From a virus, in the IMG/VR virus record IMGVR_UViG_3300036985_003303, positions 1 to 64,000 of that record: a stretch of 64,000 nucleotides of DNA; one strand, 5' to 3'. The notes under the pieces were generated by a model. That model did no database searches. It saw only the letters and a program-made list of their open reading frames with translations, and had not been told where the DNA came from. How positions within the stretch are numbered: position 1 is the stretch's first letter; each line of letters begins with the position of its first letter. Below are positions 24,460-31,986 of this stretch, piece by piece. The position numbers and the translations under genes are program-made.

Positions 24460-24482
24460 AGGAATTAATTTTAGGGGTTAGA

Positions 24483-24553
24483 GGTATAGGAGGGAGTCGA
24501 ACCCTCACACATAGCGTTGTTGCTACAGCTCTGCCAGTTGAGCTTACTATACC
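24483..24553 (-). tRNA. tRNA-like gene with a 6-nt anticodon loop
   Basis: On the minus strand: 7-bp acceptor GGTATAG / CTATACC, D arm AGCT-loop with GG-AGCT, T arm GAGGG-TTCGACT-CCCTC, no encoded CCA. The anticodon stem GTAGC / GCTAT closes a loop AACAAC of only six bases with no U33, and nucleotide 26 is missing; total 71 nt. The anticodon cannot be assigned. It may be a degraded tRNA, a tRNA mimic or a one-base sequencing error. Confidence 0.7.
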
Positions 24554-25507: not shown

Positions 25508-26171
25508 TTGTCTAAAGGTTTTTAAAATGAAGTGAATAAAAAAAAGATTTTGTTGATGCTCTACACTTGCAGCATATTCCGATACAAAATCTAATAAAAA
25601 TCTTGAGCAATCAATAGTGGATTCAAATGCATACTTCTTCCTTTGCTGGCCAATACATTCTAGATACTTTGGGGTTACGCACATTAGTATCCATAGTGCC
25701 GGTGACTGGTTACACCTTTTTTGTTTGCATGATAAGCGGGTAGTTCAAATCCCTAGGTACTTCGACACTGAGAACTATGATTGCGTCTGTTAAGAATAAA
25801 ATATGAGGGACTACCCCTCTGCACTCAGTTGTAAGTTCAATACTTCTCTATAACATGGAGATTTTGTTCCTGAGCAATTAAGCCTAACTCCTAGTATATT
25901 TTACCTACAACTGCTCACCCTTGGGAGAATGATTAAATGTTTCTGTACGTCCAACAAGCATGACTTGTGTTGTTTCTGTTTCTTAATCATTGTGGTTTCA
26001 CATCTTACATCCTTTCATGCGGTTAAACCCATGAGCCTTGTTAGCATTACAAGTTAACCTTCCTGTAAGAAGTCTTTATATCCACATGAGAATGGTGCAT
26101 TAAAAAATGGAAGAGCATATACGGCACCATCTCTTCCAGTATAGGTTACAAGCCCGACCTAGATGCGTAGG
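25508..26171. other. Structured intergenic region without clear genes
   Basis: About 660 bases with no convincing coding frame. It is full of inverted repeats: CAGTTGTA (25827-) with TACAACTG (25906-), AATGATTAA (25928-) with TTAATCATT (25982-) enclosing an inner CAACAAG/CTTGTGTTG hairpin, CTTGT-loop-ACAAG near 26037-26053, and GAGG...CCTC near 25806. The octamer GTTTCTGT occurs twice inside the second structure. Suggests one or more folded RNAs; strand not decided. Confidence 0.5.
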
Positions 26172-26354
26172 TCATTCAGTAGGATAATCAGGTTCATCTC
26201 TTGGATCTTCCTGGTTCTGCATAAATACATTGGCATTAACACAATCTTTGTTATTGAATACCACTACTTCCATTATATTTTTTGCTTGTTGAACTGTGAG
26301 GTCATTGAAGATTTCCACATGTCCTCTTCCGAAGTGTAAGATAACTGTCCACAT
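26172..26354 (-). CDS. Small hypothetical protein (60 aa)
   Basis: Beta-alpha-beta pattern: MWTVILHFGRGHVEIF, helix TVQQAKNIMEVV, then a polar acidic tail PRDEPDYPTE. One base separates it from the upstream membrane protein gene. Unknown. Confidence 0.65.
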   Translation of the reverse strand: MWTVILHFGRGHVEIFNDLTVQQAKNIMEVVVFNNKDCVNANVFMQNQEDPRDEPDYPTE

Positions 26355-26355
26355 A

Positions 26356-26628
26356 CTAATCTTTTTTAGGAGTATAGCTGTTTTGTGTATTGATTTCTGA
26401 AACTATTGTTTTACTTGATTTCATTGGTCTTACAGCTCTTTCATTTGTAGATACTATAGAAGAGAATACTATAGAGAGTAGAAACAAAGTTTCAAACCCT
26501 AATGTAGTAGTAGACCAAGTAGTGAAGTCTATCCAAGCGTTGTTCTTCATACCGTAAAAAAATTGCTGTAGTCCTAATGCTATGGATAGGTTGATACAGA
26601 CTTTGCTAAGAATGGTTATTGTTTTCAT
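26356..26628 (-). CDS. Small membrane protein
   Basis: 90 residues with two hydrophobic segments (SKVCINLSIALGLQQFFYG; TLGFETLFLLSIVFSSIV) and a polar Lys/Ser C-terminus. Probably inner membrane. Function unknown; part of the accessory block of envelope proteins. Confidence 0.7.
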   Translation of the reverse strand: MKTITILSKVCINLSIALGLQQFFYGMKNNAWIDFTTWSTTTLGFETLFLLSIVFSSIVSTNERAVRPMKSSKTIVSEINTQNSYTPKKD

Positions 26629-26738
26629 ATAACTATATTATTATGACTAATTAGTGATTTTGAGCCTTATGCTCTTTTAAAGATTTAGGTGGGTGGTGAT
26701 CTTACTTATGCACAAAAGAACCCATTACATATAAAAAA

Positions 26739-26773
26739 TACCCTAATCTTGTTTGTGTGATGAGATTAGGGTA
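26739..26773 (-). terminator. Rho-independent terminator
   Basis: Perfect 11-bp stem TACCCTAATCT / AGATTAGGGTA, 13-nt loop, followed on the minus strand by TTTTTTATA. Ends the unit containing the gene at 26859-27059. The surrounding 26629-26858 stretch is otherwise non-coding. Confidence 0.85.
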
Positions 26774-26858
26774 CTATAATGGCATGGTATTCTTCGCGTG
26801 TAAACAAGAATAGCCTTAATAAGCTCCTTATCAAGCCGTTATAGGGCCTTATAGGGAC

Positions 26859-27059
26859 TTAAAAGTCAACTCCTTCAGTGTATCCACACTTAGCGAGAAA
26901 TGGAGCTTCGCATGCTACTACACACTTACCCTTTTCCCATTTGGCTAGGAATTGTACTTTGTGTGTTAGTGCTTGCAGGCGAAAGTCATAGTATTCTCTG
27001 CTTGTCATTGTACATTCTACAATGAAGTTTTCTGTGTAATCTGTTTTGTTTTGTGACAT
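26859..27059 (-). CDS. Small hypothetical protein (66 aa)
   Basis: Reads MSQNKTDYTENFIVECTMTS and ends AKCGYTEGVDF; three Cys. A copy of the TACTATCAC repeat (27063-27071) lies three bases before the ATG. Terminated at 26739-26773, so it is probably a monocistronic unit. Unknown. Confidence 0.68.
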   Translation of the reverse strand: MSQNKTDYTENFIVECTMTSREYYDFRLQALTHKVQFLAKWEKGKCVVACEAPFLAKCGYTEGVDF

Positions 27060-27144
27060 TTTGTGATAGTATTTAATGAATAATTAGACACTTCCCCTTC
27101 CTGATGATAGTAACTTACCAATTTTTTGGGAGTGGTGTGAATGT

Positions 27145-27268
27145 GGGACTGTAATTTCGCGGAAGTCTGAAACGAAGAGTTTCAGCCCACGGAGTGTTGC
27201 CCGCGGCAGCGAGCCAAGGTATAGCCAGGCGCGTAGGATCTGCAAGATCCTGTTAGCCGACACCATGC
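27145..27268. ncRNA. Structured RNA-like element, copy 1
   Basis: GC-rich (unlike the AT-rich genome) and non-coding. Hairpins: CTGAAAC-GAAGA-GTTTCAG (7 bp), AGGATCT-GCA-AGATCCT (7 bp). Landmarks shared with copy 2 in the same order: GTAAT, GTCTGAA, GTTTCAGCCC/GTTCAGCCC, CGGAG, GCCC-CGGCAG, AGGCG, AGCCGACAC. About 124 nt. Strand not settled. Confidence 0.6.
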
Positions 27269-27275
27269 ATACCAT

Positions 27276-27421
27276 GGGCTAGTAATCCCCAGGAGTCTGA
27301 ACCTGGGTTCAGCCCTCGGAGAGCAAGGGTTGCCCAACGGCAGGGCGAAGCCCTTATAAGAGTTGATCGGGAAGAAGCCCAGGCGGCAGAAACCGGAGGT
27401 TTCAATGAGCCGACACAATGC
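27276..27421. ncRNA. Structured RNA-like element, copy 2
   Basis: Diverged tandem copy (146 nt) of the element at 27145-27268. Hairpins: CCCAGG-loop-CCTGGG, GGGC-GAA-GCCC, GAAACC-GGA-GGTTTC. Base changes between copies keep the first stem paired (GAAAC/GTTTC versus CCAGG/CCTGG), which suggests selection on RNA structure. Confidence 0.6.
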
Positions 27422-27462
27422 TTTTTTGGGAGTGGGCGGGTGTGGTGATAGTAACCAAAAAA

Positions 27463-27498
27463 ATAATGCCTGTCACTCCGAAGAGCAACAGGCGTTAT
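27463..27498 (-). terminator. Rho-independent terminator
   Basis: 11-bp stem ATAATGCCTGT / ACAGGCGTTAT (one G-T pair), 14-nt loop, followed on the minus strand by TTTTTTTGG. Ends the gene at 27503-28171. Confidence 0.85.
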
Positions 27499-27502
27499 CT
27501 TA

Positions 27503-28171
27503 TTATCGCTTGCGTAATTCAGCAAGCATTGCACGAGCATCAGCAACACGGTCTTCACGGTCAAGGTTACGAATGTCCCTAACTTTCAACTTGGAAGCCT
27601 TTGCAATGCGAAGCATTTCAAGGTTGTCCTTAGCCTTGTCAAGTTTCTCCAAAGCAAGCATTGCCTGAATTGGTTCGCAGAATGACTTAGCAATAGTACC
27701 ACGCGAAGGGTTTTCTTGATTGTTGTTAGGAACCAAATAAGAACCGTTTGTAGACAACAACTTGAATGAGTCTGCACCGTGGTAGTGGAACGGAACCATG
27801 TCGCCTAACTTGATTGAACCTGAAGCGAAGCAATCAGATAAAGCAAGGTCGCCTGCAATTACAACTTTCTTATCTCCGAACTCGAAGTGAAATGAGTAAC
27901 CGTCTGAATGAACAAGTTCTAAGTCCATAGTATAGACAACAGTACCGTTAAGCGCATTGCGAGGTGTAATACCATTAGCAACTAACTCAACAGGAGCGAC
28001 AGCAGGAGCTGATTCAAGACTGATAGACAAACTTGTTGCTAAAGCAATAAGAGTGTCAACGTCCATAGCTTGCAAAGACTTTTTAGTAATACTGTTAGCT
28101 TTGCAAATAGCTTTTTGAGCAAAGATTGTTTCAACAACGTCTGCTTGAGTAAATGTGGAAGTAGTTTCCAT
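27503..28171 (-). CDS. Unknown 222-aa accessory protein
   Basis: N-terminal helical region rich in Ala/Ser, a beta-rich centre (ALNGTVVYTMDLELVHSDGY; FGDKKVVIAGDLAL) and a long charged C-terminal helix ending MLAELRKR. No recognised family. It is a single-gene unit, with its own upstream motif (28295-28317) and downstream terminator. More balanced base composition than neighbours suggests separate acquisition. Confidence 0.72.
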   Translation of the reverse strand: METTSTFTQADVVETIFAQKAICKANSITKKSLQAMDVDTLIALATSLSISLESAPAVAPVELVANGITPRNALNGTVVYTMDLELVHSDGYSFHFEFGDKKVVIAGDLALSDCFASGSIKLGDMVPFHYHGADSFKLLSTNGSYLVPNNNQENPSRGTIAKSFCEPIQAMLALEKLDKAKDNLEMLRIAKASKLKVRDIRNLDREDRVADARAMLAELRKR

Positions 28172-28294
28172 AATAAATTTTGCGTTTTATACCCGCACGG
28201 TTTTAAAAAAGGATAACACATTTATCTGTTGGCTGTGTAGACACCAATGCTTTAGCAAACTACGAAGAGTAAGACAGCCCGTAAGGGAAAAAAG

Positions 28295-28317
28295 CACCGA
28301 AGGGGTGAATTTACATT
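28295..28317 (-). promoter_or_regulatory. Conserved leader motif, copy A
   Basis: Minus strand AATGTAAATTCACCCCTTCG then GTG. Same block as at 28872-28894 and 30135-30157 (core AATGTAAAT, then CCCTKCGGT). Located ~125 bases before the ATG at 28171. Confidence 0.55.
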
Positions 28318-28483
28318 TGAGGCTGAGTACTGGTGTGTGCGAACCGCGTAGTGCCGAAGAATGAGGCTGCTCGCGGTGAGCAAGAGAGAAAGATAGAAAG
28401 AGCGCGCGCAGCGCACCGTTTGAGTGAATGATTGGGAGCTGTTGTGAATACATTTGAGGTGGGAGTGATAGTAAAAAAACAGT

Positions 28484-28503
28484 GGTATCCCCGAAGGGAC
28501 ACC
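28484..28503 (-). terminator. Rho-independent terminator (UUCG loop)
   Basis: Minus strand GGTGTCCC-TTCG-GGGATACC, 8-bp stem with a UUCG tetraloop, then ACTGTTTTTTT. Ends gene 28510-28845. Confidence 0.88.
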
Positions 28504-28509
28504 ATGTTA

Positions 28510-28845
28510 TCAACTGTTGAAGTGGTTGATTAGCCGTTGTGTTACTGCTCTGTGTACCATTGCGTGAACAGGACGTTCTACATTGTTGTTAATCATCACA
28601 AGAAAGTCAAACTTCATTGAACCGTCAGGAAGATATTGTTTGTTTAACATAGATACAGCAACATCTATGTTAAACACTTCTTCTAGTTCTTGTTCAACAT
28701 AATCTAATGGTCCGTTGTTGTATTCCTCGTATCTTTCTAAGTTGCACATTAGTTTATACATATCAGATGCAGCTGTTACTGTTGCAGCAATGTTTAGAAA
28801 TCTAGATGCAGCTGACCTACCGATAGTTGTTGTAATAAAATTCAT
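28510..28845 (-). CDS. Unknown 111-aa accessory protein
   Basis: N-terminal hydrophobic/Ala-rich helix (RSAASRFLNIAATVTAASDM), acidic middle YVEQELEEVFNIDVAVSML and a C-terminal helix VHRAVTQRLINHF. No family recognised. Monocistronic: leader motif at 28872-28894 and terminator at 28484-28503. Confidence 0.7.
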   Translation of the reverse strand: MNFITTTIGRSAASRFLNIAATVTAASDMYKLMCNLERYEEYNNGPLDYVEQELEEVFNIDVAVSMLNKQYLPDGSMKFDFLVMINNNVERPVHAMVHRAVTQRLINHFNS

Positions 28846-28871
28846 AATATAAGGGTTTTAATTAATTAATA

Positions 28872-28894
28872 GACCGCAGGGCTAGATTTACATT
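28872..28894 (-). promoter_or_regulatory. Conserved leader motif, copy C
   Basis: Minus strand AATGTAAATCTAGCCCTGCG then GTC, 27 bases before the ATG at 28845; 21 of 23 bases match the copy at 30135-30157. Preceded upstream by ACTCAAC (28908-28914), also shared with that copy, and followed by AAACCCTTA in both. Confidence 0.65.
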
Positions 28895-28934
28895 TATGCG
28901 CCTGTGTTGTGTTGAGTGATAGTAAACAAAAAAA

Positions 28935-28956
28935 GGTAAGGGCCGAAGCCCTACCC
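28935..28956 (-). terminator. Rho-independent terminator (UUCG loop)
   Basis: Minus strand GGGTAGGGC-TTCG-GCCCTTACC followed by TTTTTTTG. Immediately after the stop of the lipoprotein gene at 28957. Confidence 0.9.
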
Positions 28957-29193
28957 TTAATATCCTTCTGCATATCTTGCATCAAACATAACTTGTGTAA
29001 CCTCTTCAGGTTCTATGTTTAGATTGAATGCAACTTCATTTACATACTCTTCATTCTCTGGGTTATCCACAGAGTTGACACCATAGGCATCACAATGTTG
29101 ATAAGTAGATTTGCAAGATGCTAATGCATACAATGCTGAGAATGTTATTATTGTCCACAAAAATAACATTCCAAATCCTGATGACTTTTTCAT
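28957..29193 (-). CDS. Lipoprotein (YQHCDAYG family), longer paralogue
   Basis: 78 residues. Signal sequence MKKSSGFGMLFLWTIITFSA, lipobox LASC, then CKSTYQHCDAYG, the same motif as the 47-aa lipoprotein at 25364-25507. The C-terminal ~40 residues are acidic and helical (EVAFNLNIEPEEVTQVMF). Expected to be lipidated and envelope-associated. I recall this motif in small lipoproteins of marine Bacteroidota and their phages. Possible superinfection exclusion, unproven. Confidence 0.78.
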   Translation of the reverse strand: MKKSSGFGMLFLWTIITFSALYALASCKSTYQHCDAYGVNSVDNPENEEYVNEVAFNLNIEPEEVTQVMFDARYAEGY

Positions 29194-29199
29194 AAGCTT

Positions 29200-29349
29200 T
29201 TAATTTTTTAAGTTAATTAGTTTGTTGTTTAATGGGACTACCTTGTTAAACCAATAGTCCCGTGCAATTTTGTACCAACCTTTATCCATGTAGTGTTGGT
29301 GTTTATCTAATGCATCTTGAAGTCGCATTAGAAGTTCACGATGAGTCAT
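29200..29349 (-). CDS. Small protein (49 aa)
   Basis: Starts MTHRELLMRLQDALDKHQHY; helical, basic, with an aromatic centre (GWYKIARDYWF). Stop six bases before the lipoprotein ATG. No membrane segment. Unknown. Confidence 0.6.
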   Translation of the reverse strand: MTHRELLMRLQDALDKHQHYMDKGWYKIARDYWFNKVVPLNNKLINLKN

Positions 29350-29353
29350 GGCT

Positions 29354-29512
29354 TTAGTCTTTAAGAGTTAATACTAAAACAAAACCAAACACTGCAGACA
29401 TAATGCCTGCAAGAATTTGATTACTTAATTGTGGAGCTGTGAATGCCGTTACTCCAAAGGCAATTACTATTAGTGAGTTGAACGCAACCCACGTTATCTT
29501 TTCTGCTTTCAT
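29354..29512 (-). CDS. Tiny membrane protein (52 aa)
   Basis: Two hydrophobic segments, WVAFNSLIVIAFGVTAF and ILAGIMSAVFGFVLVLTL, separated by a short Pro/Asn turn: a predicted helical hairpin. Start overlaps the upstream stop (ATGA). Unknown function. Confidence 0.62.
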   Translation of the reverse strand: MKAEKITWVAFNSLIVIAFGVTAFTAPQLSNQILAGIMSAVFGFVLVLTLKD

Positions 29513-29652
29513 AAGCTTTTAATTTTAAAGACACCTAATTTATGTGTGCCTTGGTTTAACAATTGTTTTTTCTTCCACAAGCACAATGCTTTATTGTAGA
29601 AGTTGAATGACTCCACAACTGTAGAGCCATTCAAATACTGTAGCTGGTACAT
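29509..29652 (-). CDS. Small basic protein (47 aa)
   Basis: MYQLQYLNGSTVVESFNFYN then KALCLWKKKQLLNQG and KIKSL. Overlaps neighbours at both ends by one to four bases. Beta-hairpin plus basic helix by eye; unknown. Confidence 0.6.
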   Translation of the reverse strand: MYQLQYLNGSTVVESFNFYNKALCLWKKKQLLNQGTHKLGVFKIKSL

Positions 29653-29762
29653 TACTTCAGTCCGATTAAATCAAACATAAGTAGTGTACCTACTAACAAT
29701 ACCAAAGTAAGAGTGAGTCCTGTCCACAGAACCCACTCTTTTTGTTTTTTCAACAGTCCCAT
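29652..29762 (-). CDS. Tiny membrane peptide (36 aa)
   Basis: Basic start MGLLKKQKEW then one transmembrane segment (VLWTGLTLTLVLLVGTLLMF). Coupled start/stop with both neighbours. Confidence 0.6.
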   Translation of the reverse strand: MGLLKKQKEWVLWTGLTLTLVLLVGTLLMFDLIGLK

Positions 29763-29932
29763 TACTTGCGTGTGCAAATTATGATTGAACCTATTGTACC
29801 CCAGCCTAAAAATGACCAGTTAGCAGCCATTAATTGGTCATTGCTATTAGCAATAAACAATCCTACTAAAGACAATGTCATCATAACTAAGCATAAGATA
29901 GTTACGACTGTTGAAAGTGTTAATCTTTTCAT
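29762..29932 (-). CDS. Tiny membrane protein (56 aa)
   Basis: Two hydrophobic segments (TVVTILCLVMMTLSLVGLFI; FLGWGTIGSIIIC) with an Asn/Asp turn. Stop overlaps the next ATG (TAATG). Unknown. Confidence 0.62.
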   Translation of the reverse strand: MKRLTLSTVVTILCLVMMTLSLVGLFIANSNDQLMAANWSFLGWGTIGSIIICTRK

Positions 29933-29935
29933 AGC

Positions 29936-30106
29936 TTAGTTTTTAGAATTAAACAATGGAGAGATTATGTTAACCACCATACAAGTCAATGACAAAGTCA
30001 ATGCAGTTATGGACATAACATACTGGTCTGTTGTATCAGACTCAAGCACTTCGATAGTGCTAACGCCACTCATAACAATGAGTAGCAAAGAAAATAAATG
30101 TTTCAT
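29936..30106 (-). CDS. Tiny exported or membrane protein (56 aa)
   Basis: MKHLFSLLLIVMSGVSTIEV: signal-like N-terminus, short polar loop (LESDTTDQ), then a second hydrophobic segment SITALTLSLTCMVVNII. First gene of the six-gene cluster; the leader motif copy D lies 29 bases before its ATG. Confidence 0.62.
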   Translation of the reverse strand: MKHLFSLLLIVMSGVSTIEVLESDTTDQYVMSITALTLSLTCMVVNIISPLFNSKN

Positions 30107-30134: not shown

Positions 30135-30157
30135 GACCGAAGGGCTAAATTTACATT
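30135..30157 (-). promoter_or_regulatory. Conserved leader motif, copy D
   Basis: Minus strand AATGTAAATTTAGCCCTTCG then GTC. Precedes the six-gene small-protein operon and sits just left of the divergent control region. Shared flanks with copy C: ACTCAAC upstream, AAACCCTTA downstream. Confidence 0.65.
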
Positions 30158-30489
30158 AAGAGGTGGTCATTCTAGTTGAGTACATACAACATCTAACCAC
30201 TCCTGGTGTGTCTGTGTCTGCTTGTCAGGACATGTGCTTCCGTGTCCTGGTGTGGTGCGAGCTTGCGAGCACAGGCTCTGCTCTCCTCTGCACAGACCTC
30301 TCTCCCCTGGAACTTTTTCTTGGATCCTGTTGTGATTTTTCTTTCGGCTTGAGATTTTATGGGGGGTAGCACCCTCCAGCTGATTGACGGGGGGATAAAG
30401 AACTAGGGATGTTCCCCACATCATTATACATTATATTTTTGATTTACCCACATCATAATACTCTCTGGATCCATATTACCCAAAATTTG
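30158..30489. other. Divergent intergenic control region
   Basis: About 330 bases between leftward and rightward genes. The 30160-30340 part is GC-rich and pyrimidine-biased on the plus strand, with a hairpin CAGGACATG ... CGTGTCCTG (30227-30250) and GTGCGAGCTTGCGAGCAC (30254-30271). Then comes the G6 element and an AT-rich promoter zone. Candidate replication origin or early promoter region; no coding seen. Confidence 0.5.
30361..30408 (+). repeat. G6-N19-GAC-G6-N9-TAGGG element, copy 1
   Basis: GGGGGG (30361-30366), 19 bases, GACGGGGGG (30386-30394), then ATAAAGAACTAGGG. Same arrangement with the same spacing at 31126-31173. Three or four G runs could form a quadruplex. Confidence 0.7.
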
Positions 30490-30497
30490 TATTTTTG
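30490..30497 (+). promoter_or_regulatory. Putative -7 promoter box TATTTTTG
   Basis: Matches Bacteroidota TAnnTTTG. Only three bases precede the ATG at 30501, so the transcript would be leaderless. Confidence 0.45.
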
Positions 30498-30500
30498 TCT

Positions 30501-30803
30501 ATGGACTATTCAAATATGTGGTGGAATGATGCTATAGAGATTCCTCTAATGGTCAAGCATATGCAGATAATAAAGCATTTTGAAAAGAAGTATGGTGTGG
30601 AAGTTAACAGAGAAATGACTTTTGTAGAATCTAAGTACATAGCAGATGCTATTACACAAATCAAATTTCTAAAAGTTCGGAAGATCATAGATACCAACAA
30701 AGCCTGTACGTTGTTTAGGCTAGTCTGCAGTACGGATCAAGAGAGTAAGCAGATGGGATTAGACCTAATGCAACAGCTCAAGGCCAAGGCTAGAAAAAAA
30801 TAA
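30501..30803 (+). CDS. Helical protein with HEAT-like motif
   Basis: 100 residues from ATG 30501 (MDYSNMWWNDAIEIP); an in-frame TTG at 30495 is less likely. Mostly helical; the C-terminus has LVCSTDQESKQMGLDLMQQL, a copy of the S-x-D-x-E motif, and a basic end KAKARKK. First rightward gene. Possibly an early regulator; function unknown. Confidence 0.75.
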   Translation: MDYSNMWWNDAIEIPLMVKHMQIIKHFEKKYGVEVNREMTFVESKYIADAITQIKFLKVRKIIDTNKACTLFRLVCSTDQESKQMGLDLMQQLKAKARKK

Positions 30804-30820
30804 GTATGAATTGTTACGGG

Positions 30821-30852
30821 TTGTATCTTTAAGAGAAAGTTTATTATATTTG
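30821..30852 (+). promoter_or_regulatory. Promoter (TTG ... TATATTTG)
   Basis: TTG (30821-30823), 21-base spacer, TATATTTG (30845-30852). Perfect Bacteroidota -33/-7 arrangement, 21 bases before the ATG at 30874. Confidence 0.7.
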
Positions 30853-30873
30853 TTTTCATAAAACAATCAGATC

Positions 30874-31014
30874 ATGGCAAAAATGGGATTACAAGGATCG
30901 AACACTAGAGTTGCTGTTAAAGTTACTAGGCCTGGTGTTCACGCAAAGACCAAAACTTCAAAGTCTAAGCAAAGCAAGAACTACAAAAAGGCCAACAGAG
31001 GCCAAGGCAGATAA
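30874..31014 (+). CDS. Small basic conserved phage protein (46 aa)
   Basis: Reads MAKMGLQGSNTRVAVKVTRP, then GVHAKTKTSKSKQSKNYKKA and RGQGR. The segment RPGVH-x-K-x-KTSK-x-K-x-SKNYKK-x3-RGQGR is a widespread tiny phage protein in my memory; it is ribosomal-protein-like in composition and probably binds nucleic acid. Single-gene unit with strong promoter and terminator, implying high expression. Confidence 0.78.
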   Translation: MAKMGLQGSNTRVAVKVTRPGVHAKTKTSKSKQSKNYKKANRGQGR

Positions 31015-31066
31015 TATTCCGCTTCTCTCTCCAGGCGGGCTACGGTGTGACCACACAGTTGCACAG

Positions 31067-31102
31067 AACCCTTACGAACTTCTACCCTCGTAAGGGTTTT
31101 TT
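31067..31102 (+). terminator. Rho-independent terminator
   Basis: Perfect 11-bp stem AACCCTTACGA / TCGTAAGGGTT, 10-nt loop, then TTTTATC. Ends the 30874-31014 unit. Confidence 0.88.
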
Positions 31103-31125
31103 ATCTTCCTAAATATACTAATATA

Positions 31126-31173
31126 GGGGGGACATCAAAAACCTAGCAATGACGGGGGGTATAGAAGATAGGG
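31126..31173 (+). repeat. G6-N19-GAC-G6-N9-TAGGG element, copy 2
   Basis: GGGGGG (31126-31131), 19 bases, GACGGGGGG (31151-31159), then TATAGAAGATAGGG. Spacing identical to copy 1, with unrelated spacer bases. Followed by three GGTGCA-type words (31172-31232) and the 31252 promoter. Confidence 0.7.
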
Positions 31174-31251
31174 TGCACCCAAATAGGTGCAAAAACACGC
31201 AAATTAAAGAAAAATTGCACCAAAAAGGGTGCATAATCCAATTATCTTTAG

Positions 31252-31259
31252 TAGATTTG
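31252..31259 (+). promoter_or_regulatory. Promoter -7 box TAGATTTG
   Basis: Fits TAnnTTTG, four bases before the ATG at 31264, so the RNA would be leaderless or nearly so. Upstream GTGCACC/GGTGCA inverted words (31173-31232) may be an operator. Confidence 0.55.
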
Positions 31260-31263
31260 TGTC

Positions 31264-31488
31264 ATGATAAAAAAATATTTAAAAATTGAACCTGCTGATT
31301 CTAAAAAATATCAGATAAAAGGCGGTGTGAAGGATGAGTTTGGAATAATGACTGGTTTAATAATTAGACCTTCATTTAAAGATAGACTTTGGATTCTATT
31401 AGGTTATGATATTGGTGTGGGTATCACTGTTATTACTGATAAACCAGCCAAACCTATTAGTACAACACACAGTTGTAATTTAATGTAG
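31264..31488 (+). CDS. Small hypothetical protein (74 aa)
   Basis: Basic N-terminus MIKKYLKIEPADSKKYQIKG, beta-rich centre with LWILLGYDIGVGITVIT and a Thr/Ser/His end. Three bases from the RepL-like gene; probable operon. Unknown. Confidence 0.65.
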   Translation: MIKKYLKIEPADSKKYQIKGGVKDEFGIMTGLIIRPSFKDRLWILLGYDIGVGITVITDKPAKPISTTHSCNLM

Positions 31489-31491
31489 GTT

Positions 31492-31986
31492 ATGATAAAG
31501 CCGGTAATTAGGAAAGTTAAGTTAGAACAAGGCATTGCTGATGTTTCTACTGGAGAAATCCTTCCACATTCCACAACCATCAATGTAGTTGACAAAGATC
31601 TAGTGATTGTTCACAGCGATGAGTATGTGATCATAGATAGTTCAGCTCTTCAGTACATTCTTCAGAACTTTAGCCCGGTAGACTACGGCAGGATCTTGAA
31701 AATGGCGGACATGACCAATGGTGTGTACAATATCTTGTACCACAACCGCCAAATTCCGCATACTGACGCTACACTTATGGAGCAATTGCAGTACACGCGC
31801 AACAAGTACGCTGACTTTATGAAGAGGTTGTACCGCAAGAGTGTGATCAGTTACATTCATACTGTTAAAGATGGAAAAGAGATGAAGTACATTATGCTTA
31901 ATCCCAACTTGGCTAGGAAAAGAAAGACAATTGACAAGAATTGTCTAACATATTTTGATGAACTAGGAACTAAAAGCGGGTTATAA
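31492..31986 (+). CDS. RepL-like winged-helix protein
   Basis: 164 residues. Residues ~55-140 form a helix-rich winged-helix-like domain: SALQYILQNFSPVDYGRILK, NGVYNILYHN, YADFMKRLYRKSVISYI, then a beta wing and YIMLNPNLARKRK. This recalls RepL plasmid replication proteins, which crAss-like phages are reported to encode. It may bind the origin or a promoter; its location next to the divergent G6 elements fits such a role. Confidence 0.68.
   Translation: MIKPVIRKVKLEQGIADVSTGEILPHSTTINVVDKDLVIVHSDEYVIIDSSALQYILQNFSPVDYGRILKMADMTNGVYNILYHNRQIPHTDATLMEQLQYTRNKYADFMKRLYRKSVISYIHTVKDGKEMKYIMLNPNLARKRKTIDKNCLTYFDELGTKSGL

Follow-up and report, generated by a model that had tools for sequence, protein, structure and literature searches.

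The divergent control region of this crAss-like phage very probably contains a conserved cis-element of about 90-120 bp (copy A), which marks the junction between leftward replication genes and rightward structural genes in a broad set of crAss-like phages. A second G-rich site nearby (copy B) is, on the same reading, a look-alike. The initial annotation had regarded the two sites as a matched pair with fixed spacing and a potential for G-quadruplex formation. This idea is corrected here: judged by comparison of related sequences, copy A stands as a real conserved cis-element at the leftward/rightward switch, while duplication, fixed spacing and a canonical G-quadruplex are not supported. An origin, which that annotation had suggested beside a packaging signal, is the leading reading here. 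A description was not found in the open-access literature, and as far as found the element is undescribed. Crassvirales dominate the human gut virome, and where and how their DNA replication starts has been described as unknown (PMC10136315). The element represents a concrete target: short, conserved, usually present once per genome at the gene switch, found in about 50 divergent relatives and with a look-alike in the cultured crAss001. It can also serve as a landmark to orient and annotate crAss-like genomes, whether it acts as an origin, in early-transcription control or in packaging.

The window, a stretch of 64,000 nucleotides from a 117,346-bp viral record, originates from a crAss-like phage. 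PHROG matches were obtained for the portal (phrog_6547, E 1e-84), the terminase (phrog_6681, E 6e-58), the major head protein (phrog_11589, E 1e-31) and the DNA polymerase (phrog_1252, E 2e-125). The nearest portals of named phages are those of Leptolyngbya phage Lbo-JY46 (33%) and csAssE-Sib (26%). Leftward genes left of 30.1 kb constitute the replication side; rightward genes start at 30.5 kb and lead to terminase, portal and capsid. Copy A (30361) is located between the first leftward ORF of the replication-side module (29936-30106, minus strand, 56 aa) and the first rightward ORF (30501-30803, plus strand, 100 aa, ATG at 30501), with its G strand directed toward the structural module. The leftward genes and the element are separated by an A-poor tract (30205-30355), the lowest-A region of the window with an A fraction of 0.11 on the plus strand. 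Thus, a leftward transcript of this tract would be U-poor. The A fraction is 0.10-0.14 in the relatives L064, L066, L067, L068 and L070, despite changing G and C content. Farther left, Rfam reported a tRNA match at 24482-24553 (minus strand, 42.8 bits, above threshold), where ARAGORN did not report a tRNA.

The pattern G6-N19-GAC-G6-N9-TAGGG has two exact matches in the window, at 30361-30408 (copy A) and 31126-31173 (copy B). No further copy was found in the whole 117,346-bp record, a reversed control pattern yielded no match across the same record, and 100 dinucleotide shuffles of the window contained none. Two exact copies with unrelated intervening bases, flanking the first rightward genes, had been noticed initially, and the coordinates as well as the shuffles confirm this. 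The N19 stretches are identical at just 3 of 19 bases, so the likeness of the copies resides in the G tracts, GAC and TAGGG. A strict G6-N19-GAC-G6 scan of viral contigs gave 58 matches, mostly GC-rich coincidences; only L039 and L056, members of the same genus, had two copies. Four AT-rich contigs of the first scan (L022, L023, L031, L034) resemble copy A. Its block order is common to L022, L031 and L034, and crass-type genes are present in L034 and L031.

Copy A comprises three blocks within a profile-matched span at 30353-30444 (plus strand, nhmmer E=2.9e-6). Block 1 (30361-30378, plus) consists of GGGGGG and TAGCACCCTCC; alignments of 47 and 51 sequences gave the consensus GGGGG(G)TACCMC, an imperfect inverted repeat. 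Block 2 (30386-30394, plus) is GAC followed by GGGGGG, the G tract being invariant in the wider family and GAC one of several triplets. Block 3 (30404-30422, plus) is TAGGG followed by a C-rich, G-poor tract (ATGTTCCCCACATC). Among 51 non-redundant sequences, the block 1 bases T, A, C, C and the sixth-base C carry 1.4-2.3 bits. Columns 12-14 (GG) and 16-28 (C) after the second G run reach 0.2-1.0 bits, where the null distribution has its 99th percentile at 0.16. The GG at +12 to +14 contributes 0.5-1.0 bits and the C-rich tract at +16 to +28 up to 0.95 bits, and several columns of the latter contain no G or almost none. Immediately ahead of the second G tract, nine sequences each have GAC or GCC and five each GGC or GGT, with other triplets in the remainder (n=51); the interval after five Gs ranges from 19 to 24 bases. 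Because interval and triplet vary across the family, the exact 19-base spacing with GAC, initially taken for a constraint, is a local feature. The alignments place the constraint on GGGGG(G)TACCMC, G6 at a distance of 8-13 bases, RGG and a C-rich, G-free tract, not on N19-GAC. All relatives covering the switch possess copy A (L064, L066, L067, L068, L070, L071/L083 and L085), in the form GGGGG(G)TAC..C..-GGGGGG-..TAGGG with changing intervals.

Copy B (31126-31173, plus), matching G6-N19-GAC-G6-N9-TAGGG, is not a second copy of this conserved element. In the profile search it had no match at E<=10. Relatives L066 and L067 have a G5-N19-GAC-G5 version, and the G tracts are gone or reduced in L068, L070, L083 and L085. 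In L083 and L070, the first G run of copy B forms the right-hand arm of a palindrome (CCCCCTAATATATAATATAGGGGG in L083) that immediately follows the small upstream gene. The expectation that the pattern is conserved among related phages held for copy A in its generalised form and largely failed for copy B. A single duplicated element, either recognised by a protein at two G tracts that are always 19 bp apart or folding into a G-quadruplex, is very improbable. The exact pattern occurs twice, never arose in shuffles, and both copies are retained in the close relatives G004/L064 and L039. However, copy B is missed by the profile and decays in other relatives, the copy A interval varies between 19 and 24 bases, and just two G tracts are invariant. 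A conserved four-tract G-quadruplex architecture is absent from the family: two invariant tracts are separated by an interval of about 20 bases, and an adjacent C-rich tract would compete. The canonical G-quadruplex is unlikely, since the conserved constraint does not include four G tracts.

Copy B adjoins two operator-like palindromes, TGCACCCAAATAGGTGCA (31174-31191), conserved in 9 of 9 loci examined, and TGCACCAAAAAGGGTGCA (31216-31233), situated 42 bp from the first. In eight of the nine loci, among them L086 with 55-57% protein identity, perfect palindromes of the type TGCACC-N6-GGTGCA are paired at a distance of 42-43 bp; L085 has three copies at other spacings. Several relatives show the palindrome pair followed by a host-type box TAnnTTTG 3-4 bp before a start codon. 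The pair precedes a predicted gene for a 164-aa protein (31492-31986, plus) and looks like an autoregulatory operator pair. Judged from the sequences of these loci, copy B is an incidental look-alike adjoining the operator pair and does not represent the same element as copy A. The 164-aa gene served as query for close relatives; nine contigs were found at 74-100% identity, and alignment added L085 (68%) and L086 (57%). Its product is possibly a DNA-binding regulator. No Pfam or PHROG match, including RepL, was obtained for the protein, and a structure model (pLDDT 43) was too weak for comparison.

A relaxed scan with the pattern GGGGGTACCMCN{8,22}GGGGGG retrieved at least 120 stretches. Among the matches listed, nearly all stretches with a GC content below about 0.43 share one layout: GGGGG(G)TACCMC, 8-13 bases, GGGGGG, about 11 bases, GG and a G-free C-rich tract (CCCACCACATCCTC), followed by ..TTACATACTAAAAAACC. 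GC-rich matches of the relaxed scan were discarded as unrelated to the copy A family. About 50 non-redundant AT-rich viral contigs carry the element, usually once per genome and usually at a divergent switch. The nearest upstream genes are leftward and the downstream genes rightward in most contigs, with the G strand toward the structural side; L034, L093, L127 and L171/G011 have one or a few leftward genes directly right of the element. Of 50 contigs, most have the strict pattern at a single place; G013 and G023 have it at two. A crass-type TerL was detected in 19 of 47 element-bearing records, in 15 of the 18 with a length of at least 20 kb, and in none of 14 control genomes.

An independent profile HMM (nhmmer) was trained on other phages, excluding the group of the window and all Steigviridae, and applied to 783 kb of genomes. 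The match at 30353-30444 was the sole one in the 117-kb record of this phage. One clear site each was found in G001 (E 6e-15) and G011 (E 6e-13), and matches with E values from 5e-8 to 2e-3 were obtained in the relatives L067, L066, L064, L085, L083 and L070. A second clear profile site was found neither in G001, G011 and this genome nor in the matched relatives. Phage csAssE-Sib had a weak match (E 0.01) at 2028-2085, away from its switch.

Similar sites occur in the divergent regions of two named phages, cr106_1 (Steigviridae; 25620-25653, minus strand) and crAss001 (MH675552, base 133). The former scored 5.3 bits (E 6.8) in the profile search and the latter was not matched. The site of crAss001 and its Kehishuvirus relatives resembles copy A in an GGGGGTAGGACCCC-N-GGGGG motif near the switch, a G strand toward the structural genes and a following A-tract, but differs in the loop sequence. 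This version is conserved in about 35 phage records, among them Kehishuvirus isolates, cr85_1, cr128_1 and bajarodcaudo virus 1, and a function was not described for it in the open-access literature. The crAss001 and cr106_1 sites, below significance in the profile search, are probable family members on architecture and position only. The pattern is absent from crAss002, phi14:2, phi17:2 and the examined Suoliviridae.

Promoter signals differ on the two sides of the element. Host-type -7 boxes were located at 30490-30497 (TATTTTTG, plus), 3 bp before the ATG at 30501, and at 31252-31259 (TAGATTTG, plus), 4 bp before the ATG at 31264. These distances suggest that rightward mRNAs are leaderless or nearly so. 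Across 53 loci, the Bacteroidota host-type -7 box TAnnTTTG reaches its highest plus-strand densities (5.0 and 3.2 per kb) at a distance of 100-350 bp to the right of the element, compared with 0.2-0.3 per kb on the minus strand of the same interval; left of the element, it shows no enrichment on either strand (0-0.8 per kb). In this genome, 17 rightward genes have a gap upstream of them, and the box stands before 8 of these; of the leftward genes, 0 of 25 have it (Fisher 2e-4). The combined figures for three genomes are 15 of 49 rightward and 4 of 67 leftward genes (p 6e-4). Leftward genes have other leaders. The module TGTAAATTTAGCCCTTCGGTC (TGTAAATYTAGCCCTNCGGTC) at 30135-30155 (minus) recurs before another leftward gene at 28892. 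Repeated leftward leaders were also found in L109 and in G001, where TCCAACTCATAA stands before several leftward genes (minus strand; 22150, 21883 and 21357 in reverse-complement coordinates); one of the leaders abuts the element. These repeated leaders, differing between phages, are candidate early promoters of a phage polymerase. A motif search before leftward genes revealed lineage-specific leaders and no motif in common with the element. Since leftward genes carry other repeated leaders and rightward genes host boxes, the place of the element is between the two promoter systems, and the repeated promoter is something other than the element. Early and middle genes of crAss-like phages are read by a virion polymerase and late genes by the host polymerase, a division with which the promoter split observed here agrees (PMC10136315, PMC8375218).

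The cumulative GC skew of G001 has its minimum at 22 kb, at the element (22.2 kb), and its maximum at 104 kb of 121 kb. Over whole genomes, skew maxima coincide with the junction of convergent genes, and the arms are of unequal size; hence most of the large-scale skew is probably linked to transcription. A local component was apparent at third codon positions of minus-strand genes, which separate the two influences in part. Minus-strand genes right of the element have a skew of +0.32 (n=12, s.e. 0.06; about six of these ORFs are solid, e.g. genes of 372 and 369 aa, and the one of crAss001 is doubtful because relatives annotate a plus-strand gene there), compared with -0.03 for those on the left (n=136, s.e. 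0.02). The difference indicates that local skew tracks the element rather than gene direction. Rightward genes show a skew of +0.27 in the first kilobase, which declines to zero at 4-6 kb, indicating a local effect that reaches from the element to the right. A similar pattern could arise from antisense transcription. In csAssE-Sib, the skew turns at the coding switch and not at the weak element match at 2.0 kb. The skew of this genome becomes positive about 5 kb left of the element. The leftward genes at 25700-30100 have a positive GC skew and a GC content of up to 0.43, unlike the remaining leftward module.

Copy A is tentatively read as the core of a replication origin, the leading interpretation, at less than even confidence. 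It is preferred because the element is nearly single-copy, has its place between promoter systems rather than within one and is accompanied by the local skew; conservation, position, orientation and the lack of overlap with detectable promoter systems are observed as well. A docking or melting site would be formed by the pair of G tracts together with two imperfect dyads (GGGGTACCMC and RTRRGGNCCCAY), between the first leftward promoter or leader and the first rightward host promoter. Strand-asymmetric synthesis would start at the element, with the G-rich strand exposed toward the structural genes. For these steps, we infer binding of an initiator, melting and priming at the element. No initiator was identified, iterons or DnaA-type boxes were not recognised by eye, and the paired TGCACC palindromes near copy B look like an operator. 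Counting against an origin are the skew maxima at the convergent junction, the unequal skew arms, the skew turn about 5 kb to the left in this genome, the turn at the coding switch in csAssE-Sib and the missing pattern in crAss002, phi14:2 and the examined Suoliviridae.

Replication origins of tailed phages are found at divergent early-promoter regions, e.g. oriF of T4 and the primary origin of T7. The element shares with them a single site near early promoters, a G-rich/C-rich strand asymmetry and adjacent AT-rich DNA. It differs in having no known initiator motif and in being known from sequence alone, and the replication proteins are different. The mitochondrial CSB II is a G-tract primer-termination site, which depends on neighbouring G tracts that form a hybrid G-quadruplex. 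Both have G6-type tracts on a single strand and a link to strand asymmetry, but the tracts of the element are about 20 bases apart, and the comparison is an analogy only. By this analogy, a G-strand transcript directed toward the structural genes, stalled or held at the two G6 tracts as RNA-DNA hybrid, might prime the leading strand at an origin common to a large part of the Crassvirales, a speculative and quite improbable proposal. If true, it would account for the invariance of the G tracts, the G-free tract behind them and a local content of G above that of C on the exposed strand. The replication initiator locus repL of p-crAssphage (cited in PMC10136315) is a further comparison: in the present phage, a small and possibly DNA-binding gene, accompanied by the paired palindromic operators, is situated about 1.1 kb to the right of copy A. 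The 164-aa protein, however, does not match RepL, and its structure model permits no comparison. A 2023 review regards the replication mechanism of crAss-like phages as unknown and notes that the genomes can be divided by GC skew into two possible replichores (PMC10136315).

Control of divergent transcription is a somewhat unlikely, yet serious, alternative to the origin. The element would be an early leftward promoter of the virion RNA polymerase or a protein site insulating the leftward module from the rightward host-type promoters. In L097, L109, L120, L115 and L093, the first leftward start codon is about 40-60 bp from the G tract, which requires a leftward start within the element or next to it. 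Host-type boxes are not enriched on the minus strand at this place, and a leftward module devoid of such boxes fits literature on early transcription that resists rifampicin and is carried out by the virion polymerase (PMC10136315, PMC8375218). A promoter of that polymerase would be expected before several early genes; the element, with one profile match per genome, did not recur in this manner. It is nearly single-copy, whereas the other leftward genes need promoters and have different repeated leaders, and in L034, L093, L127 and G011 it is embedded in or borders a run of leftward genes and has such genes to its left and right. A packaging signal, recognised or cleaved by the terminase near a physical genome end, is improbable. 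Contig ends pointed to it, with 12 of 48 contigs ending within about 1.1 kb left of the element and none within 2 kb right. These ends spread smoothly with distance, however, short contigs are biased toward keeping structural genes, and in the present genome, a linear record, 30 kb separate the element from the end.

A structured RNA, with a conserved fold of the G tracts and flanks in a rightward or leftward transcript leader, is likewise quite improbable. Flanks of block 1 pair better with each other than flanks swapped between phages (z -4.0, plus strand; in a second set, -3.3 for one strand and -3.1 for the other), although this test leaves lineage composition in the signal and the effect is not clearly strand-specific. 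Marked hairpins were found in the single lineages L087, L201, L204 and L176 at positions differing between lineages, and the better pairing of own flanks is ascribed to such lineage-specific inverted repeats. RNAalifold predicted no consensus pair on 47 sequences, and Rfam gave no relevant match on the region. A hairpin of the interval between the G tracts was rejected, as its pairing was no better than that of swapped sequences. A P1-type stem flanking both tracts was weak and mixed with direct repeats.

Outside the copy A family, six contigs with a GC content of 0.52-0.56 (L088, L144, L122, L102, L126, L194) contain a common GGGGGTACCCC..GGTGGGGGG motif after a CACAAAAGC-type sequence, unrelated to copy A. 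On sequence grounds, this motif is a separate conserved element of another phage group.
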